Part shown: piece by piece, positions 5,698-51,320 of the stretch
Numbering within the stretch: the stretch's first letter is position 1
Layout of the letters: each line of letters opens with the position of its first letter
NCBI GenBank assembly: GCA_017434025.1
Contig: JAFRGC010000050.1
Span: 41,797 to 105,796 of the forward strand
Length of the DNA: 64,000 nt
Source of the DNA: Mogibacterium sp.
GTDB lineage: Bacteria; Bacillota; Clostridia; Peptostreptococcales; Anaerovoracaceae
Reading direction: 5' to 3'
Made by a program: the position numbers and the translations under genes
The notes under the pieces: model-generated
Databases searched by the model: none
Told to the model about the DNA's origin: nothing
The model's input: only the letters and a program-made list of their open reading frames with translations

Positions 5698-6801
5698 ATG
5701 AATGATGAAGGGGTTTCACGCGAGCACAGGTTCTCTTTGCTGACTGCTTTGCTGGTGATGATGGTGATGCTGGTCACAGGCTGCGGCTCCAAGGCCAATG
5801 TCCCGGACCGCTATGACTACGATGATTTTTCGGAATACATCACGCTTGCAGAGTATAAAGGCATTGAGTACGAAGCTTACAACGCCGAAGTGTCGGATCA
5901 GGAGATCAGGGACTATGTCGATATCGCAGTGGCAGACAGCGGATCGACAATACAGAATACGACCGGTACTGTCGGGGCGGACAGTGTGGTCAATATCAAC
6001 TACCTGGGCAAGCTGAATGGTGTTGAATTTGACGGCGGTGCAGCTGACGATGTAGAGCTCGATATTGCGGACAACAATTACATCGATGGTTTTGCAGAAG
6101 GTATCATCGGACACAAAGCCGGAGAGACTTTTGACATCAATGTGACGTTTCCGGAGAACTATGGCAATGAGGAACTGGCAGGTCAGGACGCAGTTTTCAC
6201 GATCACTGTGAATTACATCGTTGAGGAAGAACTGCCGGAATATAACGACGAGTGGGTCAAGAACAACACAGAGTACTCTTCAGTAAAGGAGTATGAGAAA
6301 TCTGTCAGGGAAGAACTCCTTGCAAGCAGGCAGCAAGATGCCGAGGCTAATGCCAGACAGAGTGTTTTCAGCGAGATCGTCAATAATACAGAGGTAGTCA
6401 AATACCCGGAAGATAATCTGCAGGCAAGGATCGATAAGATCACGAACTCATATCAGGAATATGCCAAAGCCGGCGGATATGAATTCGAAGAATACCTGAA
6501 TGACCAGATGGGGATCTCTTTAGAACAGTTCAACCAGCTTGCGAAACAGGCTTCTGAAGAAACCGTCAAACAGGAACTGATCCTTCATGCTATCGCCAGA
6601 TCAGAAGGCATAGAGATGAAGGCGGATGATTACAACAAATATCTGATCAAGCTCCTCGAGGATGCAGGATATACAGAGGAGACCTACAAGGAAGAGAAGG
6701 GATACACTATTCAGGAATACGCCGAAGACAATGATCTGTTCAATGCATATCTGTATCAGACGGTTATGAATAAAGTAATGGAATACAGTATCGCGAAGTG
6801 A
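5698..6801 (+). CDS. Lipoprotein with trigger-factor-like FKBP and chaperone domains
   Basis: 367 residues. An N-terminal hydrophobic segment ends in the lipobox VTGC (Cys29), so the protein should be lipid-anchored outside the membrane. Residues about 90-170 form an FKBP peptidyl-prolyl isomerase domain (VVNINYLGKLNGVEFDGG ... GFAEGIIGHKAGETFDINVTFPENYG). The rest is helical and matches the C-terminal arms of trigger factor (YNDEWVKNN ... YEKSVREELLASR ... QASEETVKQELILHAIA). The ribosome-binding N domain of true trigger factor is missing. It is therefore an extracytoplasmic foldase, comparable in role to PrsA, and probably assists secreted proteins such as the pilins. GGAGG precedes the ATG. 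Confidence 0.85.
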   Translation: MNDEGVSREHRFSLLTALLVMMVMLVTGCGSKANVPDRYDYDDFSEYITLAEYKGIEYEAYNAEVSDQEIRDYVDIAVADSGSTIQNTTGTVGADSVVNINYLGKLNGVEFDGGAADDVELDIADNNYIDGFAEGIIGHKAGETFDINVTFPENYGNEELAGQDAVFTITVNYIVEEELPEYNDEWVKNNTEYSSVKEYEKSVREELLASRQQDAEANARQSVFSEIVNNTEVVKYPEDNLQARIDKITNSYQEYAKAGGYEFEEYLNDQMGISLEQFNQLAKQASEETVKQELILHAIARSEGIEMKADDYNKYLIKLLEDAGYTEETYKEEKGYTIQEYAEDNDLFNAYLYQTVMNKVMEYSIAK

Positions 6802-6859
6802 TCTAACATATTGTCGATAATTGACGGCTTTCAGCCGGGGTGAAAACGGAGGAGAAGAC

Positions 6860-7306
6860 ATGAAATGCCCGTACTGTAATTATGAGGACACCAAAGTCGT
6901 AGATTCGAGACCTGTCGAGGATGGACTGGCTACCAGGAGGAGAAGGGAATGCGGCAAGTGCCACAAGAGATTCACGACCTTCGAGAAGATTGAGAATTCC
7001 CTGCTTGTAGTAGTCAAGAAAGATGGTACCCGCGAGAGTTTCGACAAGAACAAGATCATCAACGGCATCATGAAGGCCTGCCAGAAGACTAAGGTAACTT
7101 ATGATGATGTTCAGAAGATCGCCGATAACATCGAGAGAGGTCTCAACAATACGATGGAGAAGGAGATCAAATCGACGATCATCGGAAGACTGATCATGGA
7201 CGAACTCAAGAAGATCGATCAGGTCGCTTATGTAAGATTTGCGTCGGTTTACCAGGAGTTCAAGAGCGTCGATACATTTATCGATGAGATCAACAAACTC
7301 AGATAA
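6860..7306 (+). CDS. nrdR: Transcriptional repressor NrdR
   Basis: 148 residues. NrdR senses dATP/ATP and represses ribonucleotide reductase genes. It has a zinc ribbon (CPYC at residues 3-6, CGKCHKRF about 31-38) and an ATP-cone domain (VVKKDGTRESFDKNKIINGIMKAC ... GRLIMDELKKIDQVAYVRFASVY). The start at 6860 follows GGAGGAG and gives the conserved MKCPYC; the open frame from 6821 would add 13 unrelated residues. It lies 14 bases upstream of cmk, so both deoxynucleotide-related genes are cotranscribed. Confidence 0.96.
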   Translation: MKCPYCNYEDTKVVDSRPVEDGLATRRRRECGKCHKRFTTFEKIENSLLVVVKKDGTRESFDKNKIINGIMKACQKTKVTYDDVQKIADNIERGLNNTMEKEIKSTIIGRLIMDELKKIDQVAYVRFASVYQEFKSVDTFIDEINKLR

Positions 7307-22475: not shown

Positions 22476-23483
22476 TTGAAAACCGCGATACTTTTCGTAA
22501 TAATGCTGCTCGTGCTTGTCATCCCTCATGAGTGGGGACACCTGATCGTGGCCAAACTCTGCGGAGTCAAAGTCAATGAGTTCTCGGTCGGCATGGGGCC
22601 GCTTCTGTTCAAACGCCAGAAAGGTGAGACACAGTATTCGGTCCGTCTGCTGCCACTGGGGGGTTATTGCGCGATGGAGGGAGAAGAAGAATCCAGCGAT
22701 GATCCACGGGCATACAGCAACAAGAGCAACTTGCAGAAGGTTGCGATCCTTCTGGCAGGAGTTACTATGAATGTGATCATAGCGATCCTGGCAGTAACGA
22801 TCGCTTATACGATCGGCGGCGTTCCGTCTAACACTTTGGGCGGAGTAGACGCAGGATCGCCTGCTGCAGCAGGCGGCCTGCAGGCCGGAGATAAGATCAT
22901 TGAGATCGATGGCAACGCCGTCAACAGCTGGAATGACATATTGATCGATATTGACGCGTATCACGAAGGTGACCGGCTTGAGATCGTCTATAAGCGTGAC
23001 GGAGATGCCAAAACGGCTTTCGTTACACCTGAATACAACAGTGAGACCGAGCGATATATGATAGGTATCTCTGCAGGAGTCACAAGGGATCCTCTGACTT
23101 GCATTACATACGGAGCGCGAGCTACATGGGATCTTGGCAAGATGATGATCGAAGCGTTCCAGTCCATGTTCAAAAGAGGGATCTCCAGAGATGATGTAGC
23201 CGGACCTGTCGGACTTGTACGGGTAGTCGGTCAGGCATCCTCTTACGGGATCGAGTCCTATCTCATGCTGCTGGCACTGGTAAGCCTCAATCTCGCACTG
23301 TTCAACATCATTCCGATCCCGGGGCTGGATGGAGGTAAGATATTCTTCATCATCCTCAAGGTGATCAGTGGAGGCAGGATCAATGACGATATGGAGTATA
23401 AGGCTACTGTCGTCGGCATGGTACTGCTGATCACACTGTTCATATTGGTCACTTATAACGACATAATGAATATATTCAAATAG
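22476..23483 (+). CDS. rseP: RseP/RasP site-2 intramembrane protease
   Basis: 335 residues; TTG start at 22476 with AAGGAG 9 bases upstream. Zinc motif HEWGH at residues 18-22 in the first helix, a PDZ domain at about 110-190 (GGLQAGDKIIEIDGNAVNSW), and the second-ligand motif NIIPIPGLDGG at about 276-286. It cleaves anti-sigma factors and leftover signal peptides in the membrane. dxr-rseP-ispG is the standard order in Bacillota. Confidence 0.95.
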   Translation: MKTAILFVIMLLVLVIPHEWGHLIVAKLCGVKVNEFSVGMGPLLFKRQKGETQYSVRLLPLGGYCAMEGEEESSDDPRAYSNKSNLQKVAILLAGVTMNVIIAILAVTIAYTIGGVPSNTLGGVDAGSPAAAGGLQAGDKIIEIDGNAVNSWNDILIDIDAYHEGDRLEIVYKRDGDAKTAFVTPEYNSETERYMIGISAGVTRDPLTCITYGARATWDLGKMMIEAFQSMFKRGISRDDVAGPVGLVRVVGQASSYGIESYLMLLALVSLNLALFNIIPIPGLDGGKIFFIILKVISGGRINDDMEYKATVVGMVLLITLFILVTYNDIMNIFK

Positions 23484-23512
23484 ATCTGCGGACAGGCAGA
23501 TAAGGAGTTAAC

Positions 23513-24580
23513 ATGACAAGGCAAGTCAATTGCGGAGATGTGATAATTGGAGGCGGCGCGCCGGTATCGATCCAGTCCATGACAAATGTGGATACCAGAG
23601 ATACTGACGCTCTCGTAAGACAGATCGATGAACTCGCTGATGCGGGATGTGAGATCGTGCGTTGCGCTATTCCGGACATGGAAGCAGCGGAATCATTTGG
23701 AAGAGCGAAGAAACTCGTCAAAGTCCCGCTTGTCGCGGATATCCATTTTGACTACAGGCTTGCGATCGCATCGATACAGAACGGCGCTGACAAGATCAGG
23801 ATCAACCCCGGCAATATTGGAAGCCTGGACAGAGTACAGGCTGTAGTGAATGCTGCGCGTGAGAGGGAGATCCCTATTCGTGTGGGTGTCAATTCCGGGT
23901 CGCTGGAGAAGGATCTCATAGCGAAATATGGAGGCGTTACTGCTGAAGCTCTTGCAGTCAGTGGAGCCAATATGGTCAGGCTGATCGAAGACATGGGCTA
24001 TGACAAGCTGGTAGTTTCCATCAAATCTTCCAATGTGAAGATGAACTACGATGCTCACATGAAGCTGAGAGAGCTCGTTGACTGTCCGATACATATAGGA
24101 ATTACTGAGTCAGGAACCCCTAGGAACGGCAAGCTCAAATCAGCCGTTGGCATCGGTTCGCTGTTACTTGCCGGTATCGGTGATACTATGAGAGTGTCAC
24201 TGACCGATGATCCGGTAGAAGAAGTTTACTTTGCAAGACGCATCCTGGAGACGGTAGGTATGCGTGATAAGGCGATCGAAACAGTTTCATGCCCGACATG
24301 CGGCAGAACAGAGATTGATCTTATCGGACTTGCAAATGAAGCAGAAGAGAGACTTGCGCCGATCGCTCAGAGGAGATCTGCTGCGGGATTGAGACCGCTC
24401 AAGATCGCTGTAATGGGATGCGCAGTCAATGGTCCCGGTGAGAGCAGAGAGGCTGACTACGGCATCGCAGGAGGTAAGGGTGAAGGCCTTGTATTCTCTC
24501 ATGGCACAATAATAGAGAAAGTTCCGGAAGACAGACTTATCGACAGACTGATCGAGATAGTCGAGGCGGATAATGATTAA
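23513..24580 (+). CDS. ispG: 4-hydroxy-3-methylbut-2-en-1-yl diphosphate synthase
   Basis: 355-residue 4Fe-4S enzyme of the MEP pathway. N-terminal TIM barrel (SIQSMTNVDTRD ... VADIHFDYRLAI ... KIRINPGNIG ... RVGVNSGSLE ... ITESGT) and the C-terminal cluster domain with CPTCGRTEIDL and GCAVNGPGESREADYGIAGG. Its last 8 bases overlap the start of polC, implying coupled translation. Confidence 0.97.
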   Translation: MTRQVNCGDVIIGGGAPVSIQSMTNVDTRDTDALVRQIDELADAGCEIVRCAIPDMEAAESFGRAKKLVKVPLVADIHFDYRLAIASIQNGADKIRINPGNIGSLDRVQAVVNAAREREIPIRVGVNSGSLEKDLIAKYGGVTAEALAVSGANMVRLIEDMGYDKLVVSIKSSNVKMNYDAHMKLRELVDCPIHIGITESGTPRNGKLKSAVGIGSLLLAGIGDTMRVSLTDDPVEEVYFARRILETVGMRDKAIETVSCPTCGRTEIDLIGLANEAEERLAPIAQRRSAAGLRPLKIAVMGCAVNGPGESREADYGIAGGKGEGLVFSHGTIIEKVPEDRLIDRLIEIVEADND

Positions 24581-27500
24581 GATACCTGAAGAAATACTGT
24601 CAGCTTCAGAACTCACAGAAGCGATCGGCAGGAAGGAAAAGGATATTGAGATTGAGATCACTGGGATCTCAATAGAGAGAGCGGGCCTGGTGCTGGTAAT
24701 AGACACCAAGCTCAATTTCGTGATGCCGAGAAATCTCGAAAGTATCATGAAGGAACGCATCATGTCCAAGATCGGCTCTGTCAACAGGGTCAGAGTCAAT
24801 TATATGTATACCGGCATCCAGCAGGCGCAGACTGCGCATGAGAATAGCAGTAATGGCGCATCCGGCGGATGGAACGGGAACGGAGGCAATGGCGGTCAGT
24901 ACAGAGGCAAACGCGCACAGGACGAACCTGTCCATGAGAATGCTGCCGGCGAACTGATCATCATGGGCAAGGATTTCAACGGCACTCCTGTAGACTATGA
25001 GAATCTGGAAGCGCTGGTGGGAACCAATGAGAAGCCTGTCATCGAGGGTGAAGTATTCAGTATAGGATCGATGCCGATCCGCAGTGACAGGACTCTTGTA
25101 ACGATTCTGGTTGCGGCCAAAGTGCGGACGTTCTGCATCAAACAGTTCGTAACGAATGCCAAATTCGCTGAGATCAGCGAGAACCTCAGCGAAGGAGATA
25201 TGATCAGAGCCAGAGGTCCTGTCGAATACGATACTTTCGAACATGAGAACATTCTCAAGGCTCAGGCGATCAAGAAGGTGTCGAAAACGGTCAAAGAAGA
25301 TACCTATCCGAACGGCCGCAGAGTTGAACTGCACTGCCACTCCAAGATGAGCGACAATGACGGTTTCAACGAAGTTGAAGATATCGTGAATACTGCCGCT
25401 TATTGGGGGCAGCCTGCAGTCGCGATCACGGATCACGGCGTAGTTCAAGGGTTCCCGGATGCTGCCAAGGCAGCAGGCAAACTTGCTAAGAAAGGCAAGA
25501 ATATCAAGATCATCTACGGTGTCGAGGGTTATCTGTATCCGGATGAAGATGCTTTTCTGGATGACGGCAGTATTGATATTAAGAAGAACAGGACATATCA
25601 CATCATCCTGCTGGCAGCGAATCAGACAGGACTCAAGAATATCTACAAGCTCGTCAGCCTGTCACACATCGACTACTTCTATAAGCGTCCGAGACTGCCG
25701 CGTTCAGTCCTTGAAGCCCACAGAGAAGGCCTGATCATCGGCAGCGCATGCGAGGCAGGAGAGCTCTATCAGGCGATCCTGCGTGGAGCATCAGACGAGG
25801 AGCTGTTGAAGATCGCTTCCTACTACGATTACCTTGAAATACAACCGCTTGGCAATAACCGTTTTATGGTTGATGAAGGGATCGTACAGAGCAAAGACGA
25901 CATCATAGCCATGAACAAGAAGGTGATCGAGATCGGTGACCGTCTCGGCAAACTCACTGTGGCTACGACAGACTCGCATTATCCTACACCGGAGGCGTCT
26001 ATATACAGAAATATCATCATGCAGGGCATAGGATTCAGGGATACCATGTCGGATTCCCTGTATCTGCGCACGACAGATGAGATGATGGAGGAATTTGCGT
26101 ATCTCGGTGACAGGGCGGAAGAGATCGTTATAACGAATACCAACAAAATCGCCGACATGGTAGGCGATGTACTGCCGGTCCCTAAGGGCAAATTCCCTCC
26201 GAAGATCGACGGTGCAGAAGAACAGCTCAGGAACAGTTGCTATGAGAAAGCGAAATCGATCTACGGAGACCCACTCCCTGAAGATATTGCAAGCAGACTG
26301 GAGACAGAGCTCAGCTCTATCATAGGCAACGGATATGCGGTCATGTATATAGCAGCTCAGATGCTGGTCAAGAAGTCCAACTCGGACGGATATCTGGTCG
26401 GTTCGAGAGGATCTGTCGGTTCATCTTTCGCTGCTACGATGGCGGGTATCACAGAGGTAAATCCGCTGCCGCCGCACTATATATGTCCGGAATGCAAACA
26501 CTACGAAGTCTCACAGGAACTCGACAAGTACGATACCGGATACGATATGCCGGACAAGACATGTCCTCGCTGCGGAGCGAGGATGAAGAAGGAAGGCCTG
26601 AATATACCGTTCGCGACTTTCCTGGGGTTCAAGGGCGACAAAGAGCCTGATATCGACTTGAATTTCGCCGGTGAGTATCAGCCTGTGGCGCACAGATATG
26701 TAGGAGAGATCTTCGGCGAGAAGAACGTGTTCAAAGCCGGCACTGTAGCTACGATCGCTGACAAGACAGCATACGGCTACGTCAAACACTACGTAGAAGA
26801 CAACAATATCAAGGTCAACAAGTACGATATAGACTATCTTGTCAAGGGATGTACGGGCGTCAAGCGTACGACAGGTCAGCATCCGGGAGGCATCATAGTC
26901 GTACCGGATGATCATGAGATATATGAGTTCTGTCCTATACAGAAACCTGCAAACAAGAGAGATACAGATGTCATCACTACTCACTTCGATTATCACAAGA
27001 TCGATGAGAACCTGCTCAAACTGGACATTCTCGGACACGATGTGCCGCAGCTGATCAGGCATCTGCAGGTCATGACGGGTGTTGACCCGATGACGATCCC
27101 GCTGGATGACCCGAAGACCATCAGTATATTCACATCACTGGACGAACTGCACATCACCAATGAGAATTACAAATTCACACACGGAACTTACGCGATACCG
27201 GAATTCGGCACGAATTTCACGCGAGGGATGCTTGACGATATCCATCCGAGGACTGTTTCGGCGCTGATCAAGATGTCCGGCTTCTCACATGGTACCGATG
27301 TATGGACCAATAATGCGCAGGATCTGCTCAGGAACGGTACCGCGACAATTGATGAGGTCATATCTTGCCGTGATGATATCATGAACTTCCTGATCAGCAA
27401 GGGACTGCCTAACGGTGATGCTTTCAAGATCATGGAGATCGTCCGTAAGAACAGGGTGCTGAGCCAGGAACAGCTTGATATGATGAAGGATCATGGAGTT

Positions 27501-48197: not shown

Positions 48198-51100
48198 ATG
48201 TATGAAAATCTTTCTGACAAGCCGGTAGCAGAGTATCAGGCTGAACAAATCAAACACTGGAGCGACATCAACATGCTCGATCTCTGCGTCAAAGAGAGAG
48301 AGGGTGCACCTTCATTCGTATTCTTCGAAGGACCTCCGACAGCTAATGGCAAGCCGGGTATCCATCACATGATGGCAAGGACCCTCAAGGACTCGATCAA
48401 TAGATACAAGACCATGCAGGGATTCCAGGTCAAGAGAAAAGGCGGCTGGGATACTCACGGCCTTCCGGTAGAGATCGAAGTCGAGAAGCAGCTGGGATTC
48501 AGCGGCAAGCAGAACATCGAGAAGTACGGCATCAAGGAATTCAACGAGAAGTGCCGCGAATCAGTATTCACATATACACAGATGTGGACTGATATGTCTG
48601 ACAAGATGGCTTATCTTGCGGATATGGATGATCCTTATATCACATACAAGAACGATTACATCGAGACGGGCTGGTGGATCATCAAGAACGCGTTCGACAA
48701 GGGACTTATCTATGAAGGATACAAGATCCTTCCGTATTGCCCGCGATGCGGAACAGGCCTCGCTTCACATGAGGTAGCACAGGGCTATAAGGACATCAAA
48801 GTCAACACGCTTACCTGTAAATTCAGACGTACAGGTGTCGACCATGATAACGAGTACTTCCTCGCATGGACAACTACACCGTGGACACTCGCTTCCAATA
48901 TCGCACTGACAGTAGGCCCTGACGTAGATTACGTCAAGTGCCTCATGAAGTCCGGCGATAACGAAGGTAATTATCTGTGGGTAGCAGAAGCTCTTGCAGG
49001 CGTTACTTTCGGCAAGGACGAGTACGAGGTAGTTGAGAAGGTCAAAGGCTCTGATATGGAGTACTGGACATACGAACAGCTTGAACCATTCTGCGTCCCT
49101 GAGAAAGGCAAGAATGCGTTCATCGTTACCTGCATGGATTACGTCAGCACATCTGACGGTACCGGTATCGTACATACTGCGCCGGCATTTGGTGAAGACG
49201 ACTATAACTGCGGACGCAAGTACAACCTCGCTGTCATGCAGCCTGTTGACGAAAGAGGCTGCTATACAGAGACTCCATGGGCTGGCAGATTCGTTATGGA
49301 GGACGGTCTTGATGTAGATATCATCAAGTACCTCGCTCAGGACGATAAGATCTATGCAAAGCAGAGACTCGAGCATGCATATCCACACTGCTGGAGATGC
49401 GGAACTCCACTCGTATACTATGCTAATAAGTCCTGGTATATCGAGATGACCAAGCTCAGAGATGAGCTCGTTGCAAACAATAATACCGTCAGCTGGTATC
49501 CGTCATATGTAGGAGAGAAGAGATTCGGCAACTGGCTTGAAGAGGTCAAAGACTGGGCTATTTCCAGATCAAGATACTGGGGAACACCGATCCCTATCTG
49601 GAAGTGCGAATGCGGACATCTTCACTGCGTAGGATCCAGAGAGCAGCTCATCAACGACGTTGAGCAGGATATTGATGAGACGATCGAACTTCACAGACCG
49701 TATGTAGATGAGATCACGATCAAATGTCCTGAATGCGGCAAGAGCATGCACAGGATCCCGGAGGTCATGGACTGCTGGTTCGACTCAGGAGCTATGCCAT
49801 TTGCTCAGTGGCATTATCCGTTCGAGAACGCTGACAGATTTGAGGAGCTGTTCCCTGCAGACTTCATCTGCGAAGGAATCGACCAGACCAGAGGCTGGTT
49901 CTATTCTCTGATGGCGATCTCCACGATCGTCAAGGGCTGCGCTCCTTATAAGAACGTTCTCGTTAACGACCTGATCCTTGACAAGAACGGCAAGAAGATG
50001 TCCAAGCACGTCGGCAACACCGTCAATCCGTTCGAGATGATGGACAAGTACGGTGCTGACGCTGTCAGATGGTATCTTGTCTATGGATCACCTGCATGGA
50101 CACCGACCAAGTTCGATGAGGACGGCATCAAGGACGTCTTCAGCAAAGTGTTCAGCACAATGCGCAACACATACAATTTCTTCTGACTCTTCGCGAATAT
50201 CGATAATGTAGAAGCAGGCAAGCTCAGCGTACCGTATGAAGAGAGACCGGAACTCGACAGATGGATCATCTCCAAGTACAACAAGCTGATCAAGAGTACG
50301 ACGGAATCGATGGATGAGTATGATCACATGAAGACCGTGAGATCCATCGGTGACTTCATCAGTGAAGATCTCTCCAACTGGTATATCAGGAGAGCAAGAA
50401 GAAGATTCTTTGCTGAGGGCATGGATCTCGACAAGCAGGCTGCATATGCAACGACTTATGAGGTACTTATCGGTCTTGCCAAAATGATGGCTCCGGTCGC
50501 TCCGTTCATTTCGGATGAGATCTACACCAAACTGACAGGTGAGAAGACAGTACACATCGCTATGTATCCGACTTCGAGAGAAGATCTTATCGATGAGAAG
50601 GTCGAAGAGCGTATGGATCTGATCAAGACGCTTGTAAACCTCGGCAGAAGCACCAGAGAGCAGGAGAAACTCAAAGTAAGACAGCCGCTCAGCAAGGTCA
50701 TCGTAGATGGAAGATACAAGGATATCATCAGCGATCTGACCAACCTGATCACAGAGGAGCTCAACGTTAAGGAAGTCCAGTTCGAGGACGACCTTGATAA
50801 ATATATGAACTTCCAGGTAAAGCCTAATTTCAGAGCAGCCGGCCCGGTACTCGGCAAGAACGTCAAGGCATTCGGTGCAGCTCTTGCACAGGCTGATGCC
50901 AAGGAGCTTTCGTCCAGACTTGCTACCGGCCCAGTAGAGATGGAGCTCGGCGGTCAGAAGTATGAGATCACAGAAGACCTCGTAGACGTGAGGATCTCTT
51001 CCAAAGAAGGTTTTGTCGTCGGCATGGACAACAATGTATTCACGATCCTCGATACAACTCTTACACCGGAACTGATCGAGCAGGGATACGTTCGTGAAGT

Positions 51101-51320
51101 CATCTCCAAGATCCAGCAGCTGCGTAAGCAGGCTGACTTCGAGATGATGGACGAGATCCGCATCTACATGCACGCTGACGATGAGATCCGCGCAGCTGTA
51201 GAGAAAGCAAGCGATTTCATCAAGGATGAGACGATCGCTGTATCGATCGAAGACAGAGAAGACCTTCCTGTATTCGATATCAACGGACATAAGACCGGTA
51301 TCGCAGTAGAGAGGATCTAA
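48198..51320 (+). CDS. ileS: Isoleucyl-tRNA synthetase, IleRS2-like, interrupted by an in-frame TGA
   Basis: 1040 codons plus stop, in one frame but with TGA at codon 663 (50184-50186). Before it: the catalytic domain with the class I first signature as G-I-H-H (residues 54-57, in NGKPGIHHMMA) instead of H-x-G-H, the editing domain (AWTTTPWTLASN, GTGIVHTAPAFGEDD), the Trp-rich Ile site (RSRYWGTPIPIW) and KMSKH. The TGA lies in the linker at YNFF-stop-LFANID. After it the anticodon-binding and C-terminal domains continue normally (RPELDRWIISKYNKL ... TSREDLIDEKVEERMDLIKTLVNLGR ...). The zinc ribbon of type 1 IleRS is absent, so I call type 2. Homology on both sides of TGA and an unchanged frame argue for recoding, a point mutation or a sequence error, not two genes. 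Confidence 0.9.
50184..50186 (+). other. In-frame TGA codon within ileS
   Basis: TTC-TTC-TGA-CTC-TTC. The next base is C, the context in which UGA is read through most easily. Other genes here (radC, uppS, rnc, ftsY, der) end with TGA, so TGA is a normal stop in this organism. No convincing SECIS-type stem-loop follows. Confidence 0.9.

Follow-up and report, generated by a model that had tools for sequence, protein, structure and literature searches.

The window analysed here, a stretch of 64,000 nucleotides from a Mogibacterium sp. genome, carries on its forward strand an isoleucyl-tRNA synthetase (IleRS) gene, ileS, at 48198-51320 that is otherwise intact around a single in-frame TGA. The reading frame starts at ATG 48198 and its first part (48198..50183; codons 1-662, including the KMSKH motif) runs into TGA at codon 663 (50184..50186; next base C) in the context YNFF*LFANID, as placed by translation and by congener alignment. 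Past the TGA the frame is open for 377 codons (codons 664-1040; 50187..51320) to a TAA at 51318-51320, and the first in-frame ATG, GTG or TTG beyond the stop is the ATG at 50310. The TIGR00392 profile, which models ileS, spans the stop with a score of 955.7 bits and one TGA inside the match. We take the first part to hold the catalytic and editing domains and the second part the anticodon-binding and C-terminal region, which would place the stop at the junction with the catalytic part, where the anticodon-binding region begins. The TGA is thus present in the assembly and in frame in ileS, and since the homology before and after it is in a single frame, it is more than a chance occurrence. Exact frame and coordinates, continuous IleRS homology across the stop and an intact downstream frame to the TAA had all been proposed in the initial annotation, and each was reproduced by translation and profile search.

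The draft source genome comprises 89 contigs totalling 2,221,953 bases and is 83.76% complete, so that about 16% is missing. The contig with the stop is 105.8 kb long, and its nearer end is approximately 13.8 kb away from the stop. Approximately 475 kb of this genome was compared with 395 kb of the congener G018, where 115 open reading frames (ORFs) satisfied the homology test and the comparison yielded six stops. Only the ileS stop fell inside a real gene; of the other five, two were in antisense frames of a conserved gene, and the remaining three shortly preceded the probable start of a real gene, in one case a YceG-like gene. Scanning these 475 kb without recourse to homology gave 123 candidate stops, mostly in shadow frames, and these were assessed visually on coding scores and start codons close by; the only two that were translated proved to be the selenocysteine (Sec) codon of SelD and an ordinary stop between two genes. 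The sampled assembly is otherwise clean, and both this and the position of the site well inside its contig count against a sequence error or strain variant at codon 663.

Lone stops do occur in other draft ileS genes. In the ileS of congener G030, a Lys codon is replaced by TAG 75 bases, or 25 codons, from the contig start (L128:76-78). As a TAG this stop cannot be read as selenocysteine, and so demonstrates that such stops arise in draft sequences independently of Sec. Together with the source genome, 2 of the 45 genus genomes with an ileS row carry a lone stop in this gene. PMC7918605 names sequencing error as one of the main origins of prokaryotic in-frame stops and retains only those stops that are common to at least two genomes.

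The comparison with close relatives that had been suggested for codon 663 returned a sense codon in every readable case. Forty-six congeners were searched for ileS and the aligned codon could be read in 44, with Cys in 39, Thr in five and a stop in none. The closest relatives (best 80 of 448) were mostly metagenome-assembled genomes from rumen or gut, assigned to Mogibacterium sp. or uncultured Clostridiales. A wider alignment of 127 rows, in which some species appear twice, left 124 IleRS rows after setting aside the window itself and two non-ileS entries (L002, L003); these have Cys in 72, Val in 42, Thr in eight and Ile in two. With 52 of the 124 rows carrying Val, Thr or Ile, Cys at this codon looks like a habit of the genus, replaced mostly by Val outside it, and no widely conserved residue. 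Family- and order-wide, no ileS stop was found among the matches listed, which are higher-scoring genes than the window ileS and others like it.

Selection on the two halves of the gene was estimated from pairwise Nei-Gojobori dN/dS values between the window ileS and eight relatives, which are rough as dS is near saturation. Values involving the window ileS ranged from 0.025 to 0.035 before the stop and from 0.052 to 0.099 after it, within the span of the relative-to-relative comparisons (0.014-0.049 before; 0.048-0.135 after). Purifying selection thus looks normal on both sides of the stop, with no sign of a long decay. An old pseudogene was rejected on this ground, as there is neither relaxed selection nor, within the incomplete genome, a replacement copy.

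The profile search with TIGR00392 detected no second ileS over the cut-off in the 83.76%-complete assembly; other matches were weaker, sub-threshold stretches that presumably belong to other class I synthetases. Additionally, 28 genus members including the source genome each gave one ileS match at E <= 1e-200. These results weaken the earlier proposal that a nonsense mutation is tolerated through a second ileS. A recent inactivation covered by a copy in the unassembled 16% would agree with the incompleteness of the draft and with the existence of bacteria that have two IleRS types (PMC10485003), but we consider it very doubtful, as no genus member searched has a second IleRS row over the cut-off and selection is not relaxed. 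Among solved structures the window IleRS matched 8c8w best (1014.8 bits), followed by 1ile (783.7 bits) and the Staphylococcus aureus enzyme 1ffy (382.2 bits); with 8c8w and 1ile, and not 1ffy, assumed by us to be type-2 enzymes, the window IleRS is by sequence similarity type-2-like (eukaryote-like), its likeness to type-2 enzymes exceeding that to type-1 enzymes. A search of the 64-kb window for a leader RNA, for instance a T-box, gave no Rfam match at the gathering threshold.

Decoding of UGA in this genome is more complex than at first supposed. TGA had been described as an ordinary stop elsewhere in the window, and it does terminate 13 of the 45 main window ORFs picked; this description was incomplete, as TGA is also the selenocysteine codon of the genome. 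selA and selB are present, selD carries its own in-frame TGA, and a search separate from ARAGORN found two tRNA-Sec genes with UCA anticodons (C45:13411-13503 and C61:316-409). Across the genus, TGA is found in 41 of 43 over-threshold selD rows and, among the matches listed, in 16 of 24 GrdA sequences. By its gene complement, the source organism evidently decodes UGA as selenocysteine in other genes, and a Sec-containing IleRS therefore needed to be tested. One of the tRNA-Sec genes adjoins selA-selB and the other adjoins genes that resemble grdC/grdD, trxA and trxB (named by eye from their translations), and several congeners likewise carry two tRNA-Sec genes. A short SelB-like gene of approximately 385-425 codons, covering only the first 323-338 of the 581 selB model positions, was also observed in seven congeners; G018, G009, G024, G016 and G012 also encode a longer SelB at another locus, and in G002 and G015 the short gene is the best selB match found.

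ARAGORN called 53 of 55 tRNA hits as genes (one of the remaining two was sub-threshold and one partial at a contig end), none of them with a UCA anticodon, with CCA for Trp and GCA for Cys. Release factor RF2 is intact. The earlier view that a whole-genome code change is unlikely therefore holds: with RF2 present, UCA confined to the two tRNA-Sec genes and 13 of 45 ORFs ending in TGA, genome-wide UGA reassignment is not supported in this incomplete genome, and the code, as far as the genome shows, appears to be the standard one plus Sec. As a separate observation, contig C68 holds 16 tRNA genes at 23083-26296 and five at 6540-7090, several scoring low in the tRNA search, and these runs contain the only tRNA-Trp(CCA) and tRNA-Ile(GAT) found in the genome. 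Five of six ORFs scanned nearby have PHROGs matches, including an ATPase and an HNH endonuclease, which is too little for a phage call.

Reading of the ileS UGA by SelB and tRNA-Sec would give a Sec-containing IleRS, and both the Sec machinery described above and the Cys that 39 of 44 readable congeners have opposite the TGA are in agreement with this. The downstream RNA was compared with a loose bacterial SECIS (bSECIS) model, its rules and numbers taken from PMC13188914 and applied permissively. The ileS site fitted the model when at least 60 nt were folded, with the apical loop AGGCAA 29 nt past the UGA and a folding energy of -10.1 kcal/mol; folds of 40 to 57 bases gave -3.2 to -4.5 kcal/mol, and below 60 bases the model was not satisfied. 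Of the known Sec sites in the genus, 44 of 46 fitted the same model, but it was likewise satisfied in 25 of 39 distinct relatives with a Cys codon at this position. The compact hairpin at the ileS site reached only -2.8 kcal/mol, compared with -5.5 to -16.0 at 30 SelD sites, -7.5 to -11.4 at three GrdB sites and 0 to -5.5 at 13 GrdA sites. A level of -7.5 was missed by the ileS site, by all 13 GrdA and by 11 of the 30 SelD sites, and among ordinary Cys codons of the window 42 of 179 reached it. With GrdA sites equally weak and so many ordinary Cys codons attaining the same level, the power of this test is low.

The 45 nt downstream of the stop were less structured than their dinucleotide shuffles (z = +2.3), and all 38 aligned relatives, 35 of them with Cys, had lower values; z was +0.65 at 60 bases (31 of 38 relatives lower) and +2.1 at 75 bases (38 of 38 lower). 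At 48 nt the value of +2.4 for the ileS site exceeded those of all 46 known Sec sites, the highest of which was +1.7. Folds across both sides of the stop gave z = +1.6 with 60 bases per side, above all 38 relatives, and +0.25 with 75 bases per side, above 29 of the 38.

The residue itself adds little in favour of selenocysteine. The replacement of Cys by Val, Thr or Ile in the 52 non-Cys IleRS rows indicates a position that is probably not redox-active. Furthermore, 21 of the 103 one-step routes to TGA in ileS begin at Cys by chance alone, so the pairing with Cys is worth little. With hairpin tests that do not set the site apart, an unconserved Cys and no second species with TGA among the readable congeners, we regard a Sec-containing IleRS as improbable. 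A narrower version, where a structural Cys of IleRS became a Sec-UGA with a weak lineage-specific SECIS and neighbouring helix residues adjusting, is more improbable still. Among the papers listed in a literature search, none dealt with an IleRS containing selenocysteine, as judged by titles or the opening of abstracts. If such an enzyme did exist, it would tie the supply of charged tRNA-Ile to selenium. Programmed read-through in general, another option raised in the initial annotation, loses ground for the same absence of the stop from all 44 readable congeners and for lack of a distinctive structural signal.

The sequence around the stop is unusual in one further respect. The window IleRS has 17 residues, not counting the stop, that are unique in comparison to 38 distinct other IleRS sequences, and four of these are no more than 15 codons away from the stop (648 Phe, 655 Met, 665 Phe and 677 Ser), in a stretch (50139..50230) that is otherwise near-invariant across the genus. 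Three are hydrophobic replacements (Ile/Val648Phe, Leu655Met and Tyr665Phe). Pooled over 34 relatives, four divergent or partial ones being left out, only 7 of 249 unique residues fall in the same ±15-codon span (binomial p ~0.001). This cluster was sought post hoc and its significance depends on the span, with p of 0.066 at ±5, 0.045 at ±10, 0.004 at ±20 and 0.025 at ±40 codons; the value of 4e-5 obtained for hand-picked codons 645-666 is unreliable. Such a cluster could reflect compensatory changes near an altered residue, a local relaxation of constraint or several errors in one patch.

One interpretation of this cluster is that the TGA is real and fixed, and that ileS survives on leaky decoding of UGA by a near-cognate tRNA, probably tRNA-Trp, with helix residues adjusted accordingly. 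UGA followed by C is a weak stop context. The hydrophobic replacements, ordinary purifying selection past the stop and a site deep in a long contig are all consistent with this interpretation. Precedents of UGA read-through are given in PMC7918605, including 6% read-through at one UGA mutation in prfB+ Bacillus subtilis and insertion of Trp at UGA in Escherichia coli and Salmonella. A yield of a few percent would nevertheless be a heavy cost for an essential synthetase, RF2 is intact, the only tRNA-Trp found has the normal CCA anticodon and none of the readable congeners retains the stop, and we rank leaky decoding second among the readings and consider it rather unlikely. Alternatively, the cluster could mark relaxed constraint around a break in a split IleRS made as two polypeptides by termination and re-initiation, the break falling where the catalytic and anticodon-binding parts adjoin. 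This is extremely improbable, as no ATG, GTG or TTG occurs until 50310, 123 bases on and at a loss of 41 codons, and both frame and conservation are unbroken through that gap.

Overall, the best single reading, to which we assign an even chance, is that a single base in the consensus of a metagenome-assembled genome was called wrongly or was taken from a variant strain. The nonsense base would then lie in an ileS that is otherwise normal, under selection, present in single copy and type-2-like, and living cells would mostly have a sense codon at 663 and make an ordinary full-length IleRS; we infer that the base is not fixed in cells. This reading is favoured because a truncated form of this essential enzyme would presumably lack its anticodon-binding part, with no second copy in the assembly; because no restart codon lies near the stop; because none of the 44 readable congeners has the stop; because dN/dS reveals no long decay; and because stops appear in other draft ileS genes, as with the TAG of G030. 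The naming of sequencing error as a major source of stops in PMC7918605 further argues for it. Assembly error is accordingly the likeliest of the three options offered by the initial annotation, although a single random error does not predict the cluster of unique residues. If the error reading is correct, a single base of a draft genome can mimic recoding, and even among selenoprotein makers a TGA aligned with Cys says little, given that one-fifth of the one-step TGA routes in ileS start at Cys. A real TGA would, surprisingly, make an essential synthetase reliant on UGA decoding that is either leaky or selenium-dependent.

In comparison to known systems, the ileS TGA resembles the lone prokaryotic in-frame stops of PMC7918605 in that a stop stands opposite a sense codon in an otherwise intact gene with low dN/dS; it differs in being present in one genome only and would not pass the two-or-more-genomes filter applied there. 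With bacterial selenoproteins that have Sec/Cys pairs, as described in PMC1794560 and PMC13188914, it shares a Sec-decoding organism and a TGA opposite Cys in relatives; unlike in these proteins, the Cys is unconserved outside the genus, no readable congener has the TGA, no distinctive SECIS accompanies the site and IleRS is not an oxidoreductase. The closest likeness among solved structures is to the type-2 enzymes 8c8w and 1ile, which gave the best sequence matches, far above 1ffy. In contrast to these type-2 IleRS, the window gene carries an in-frame stop at what we take to be the start of the anticodon-binding region.
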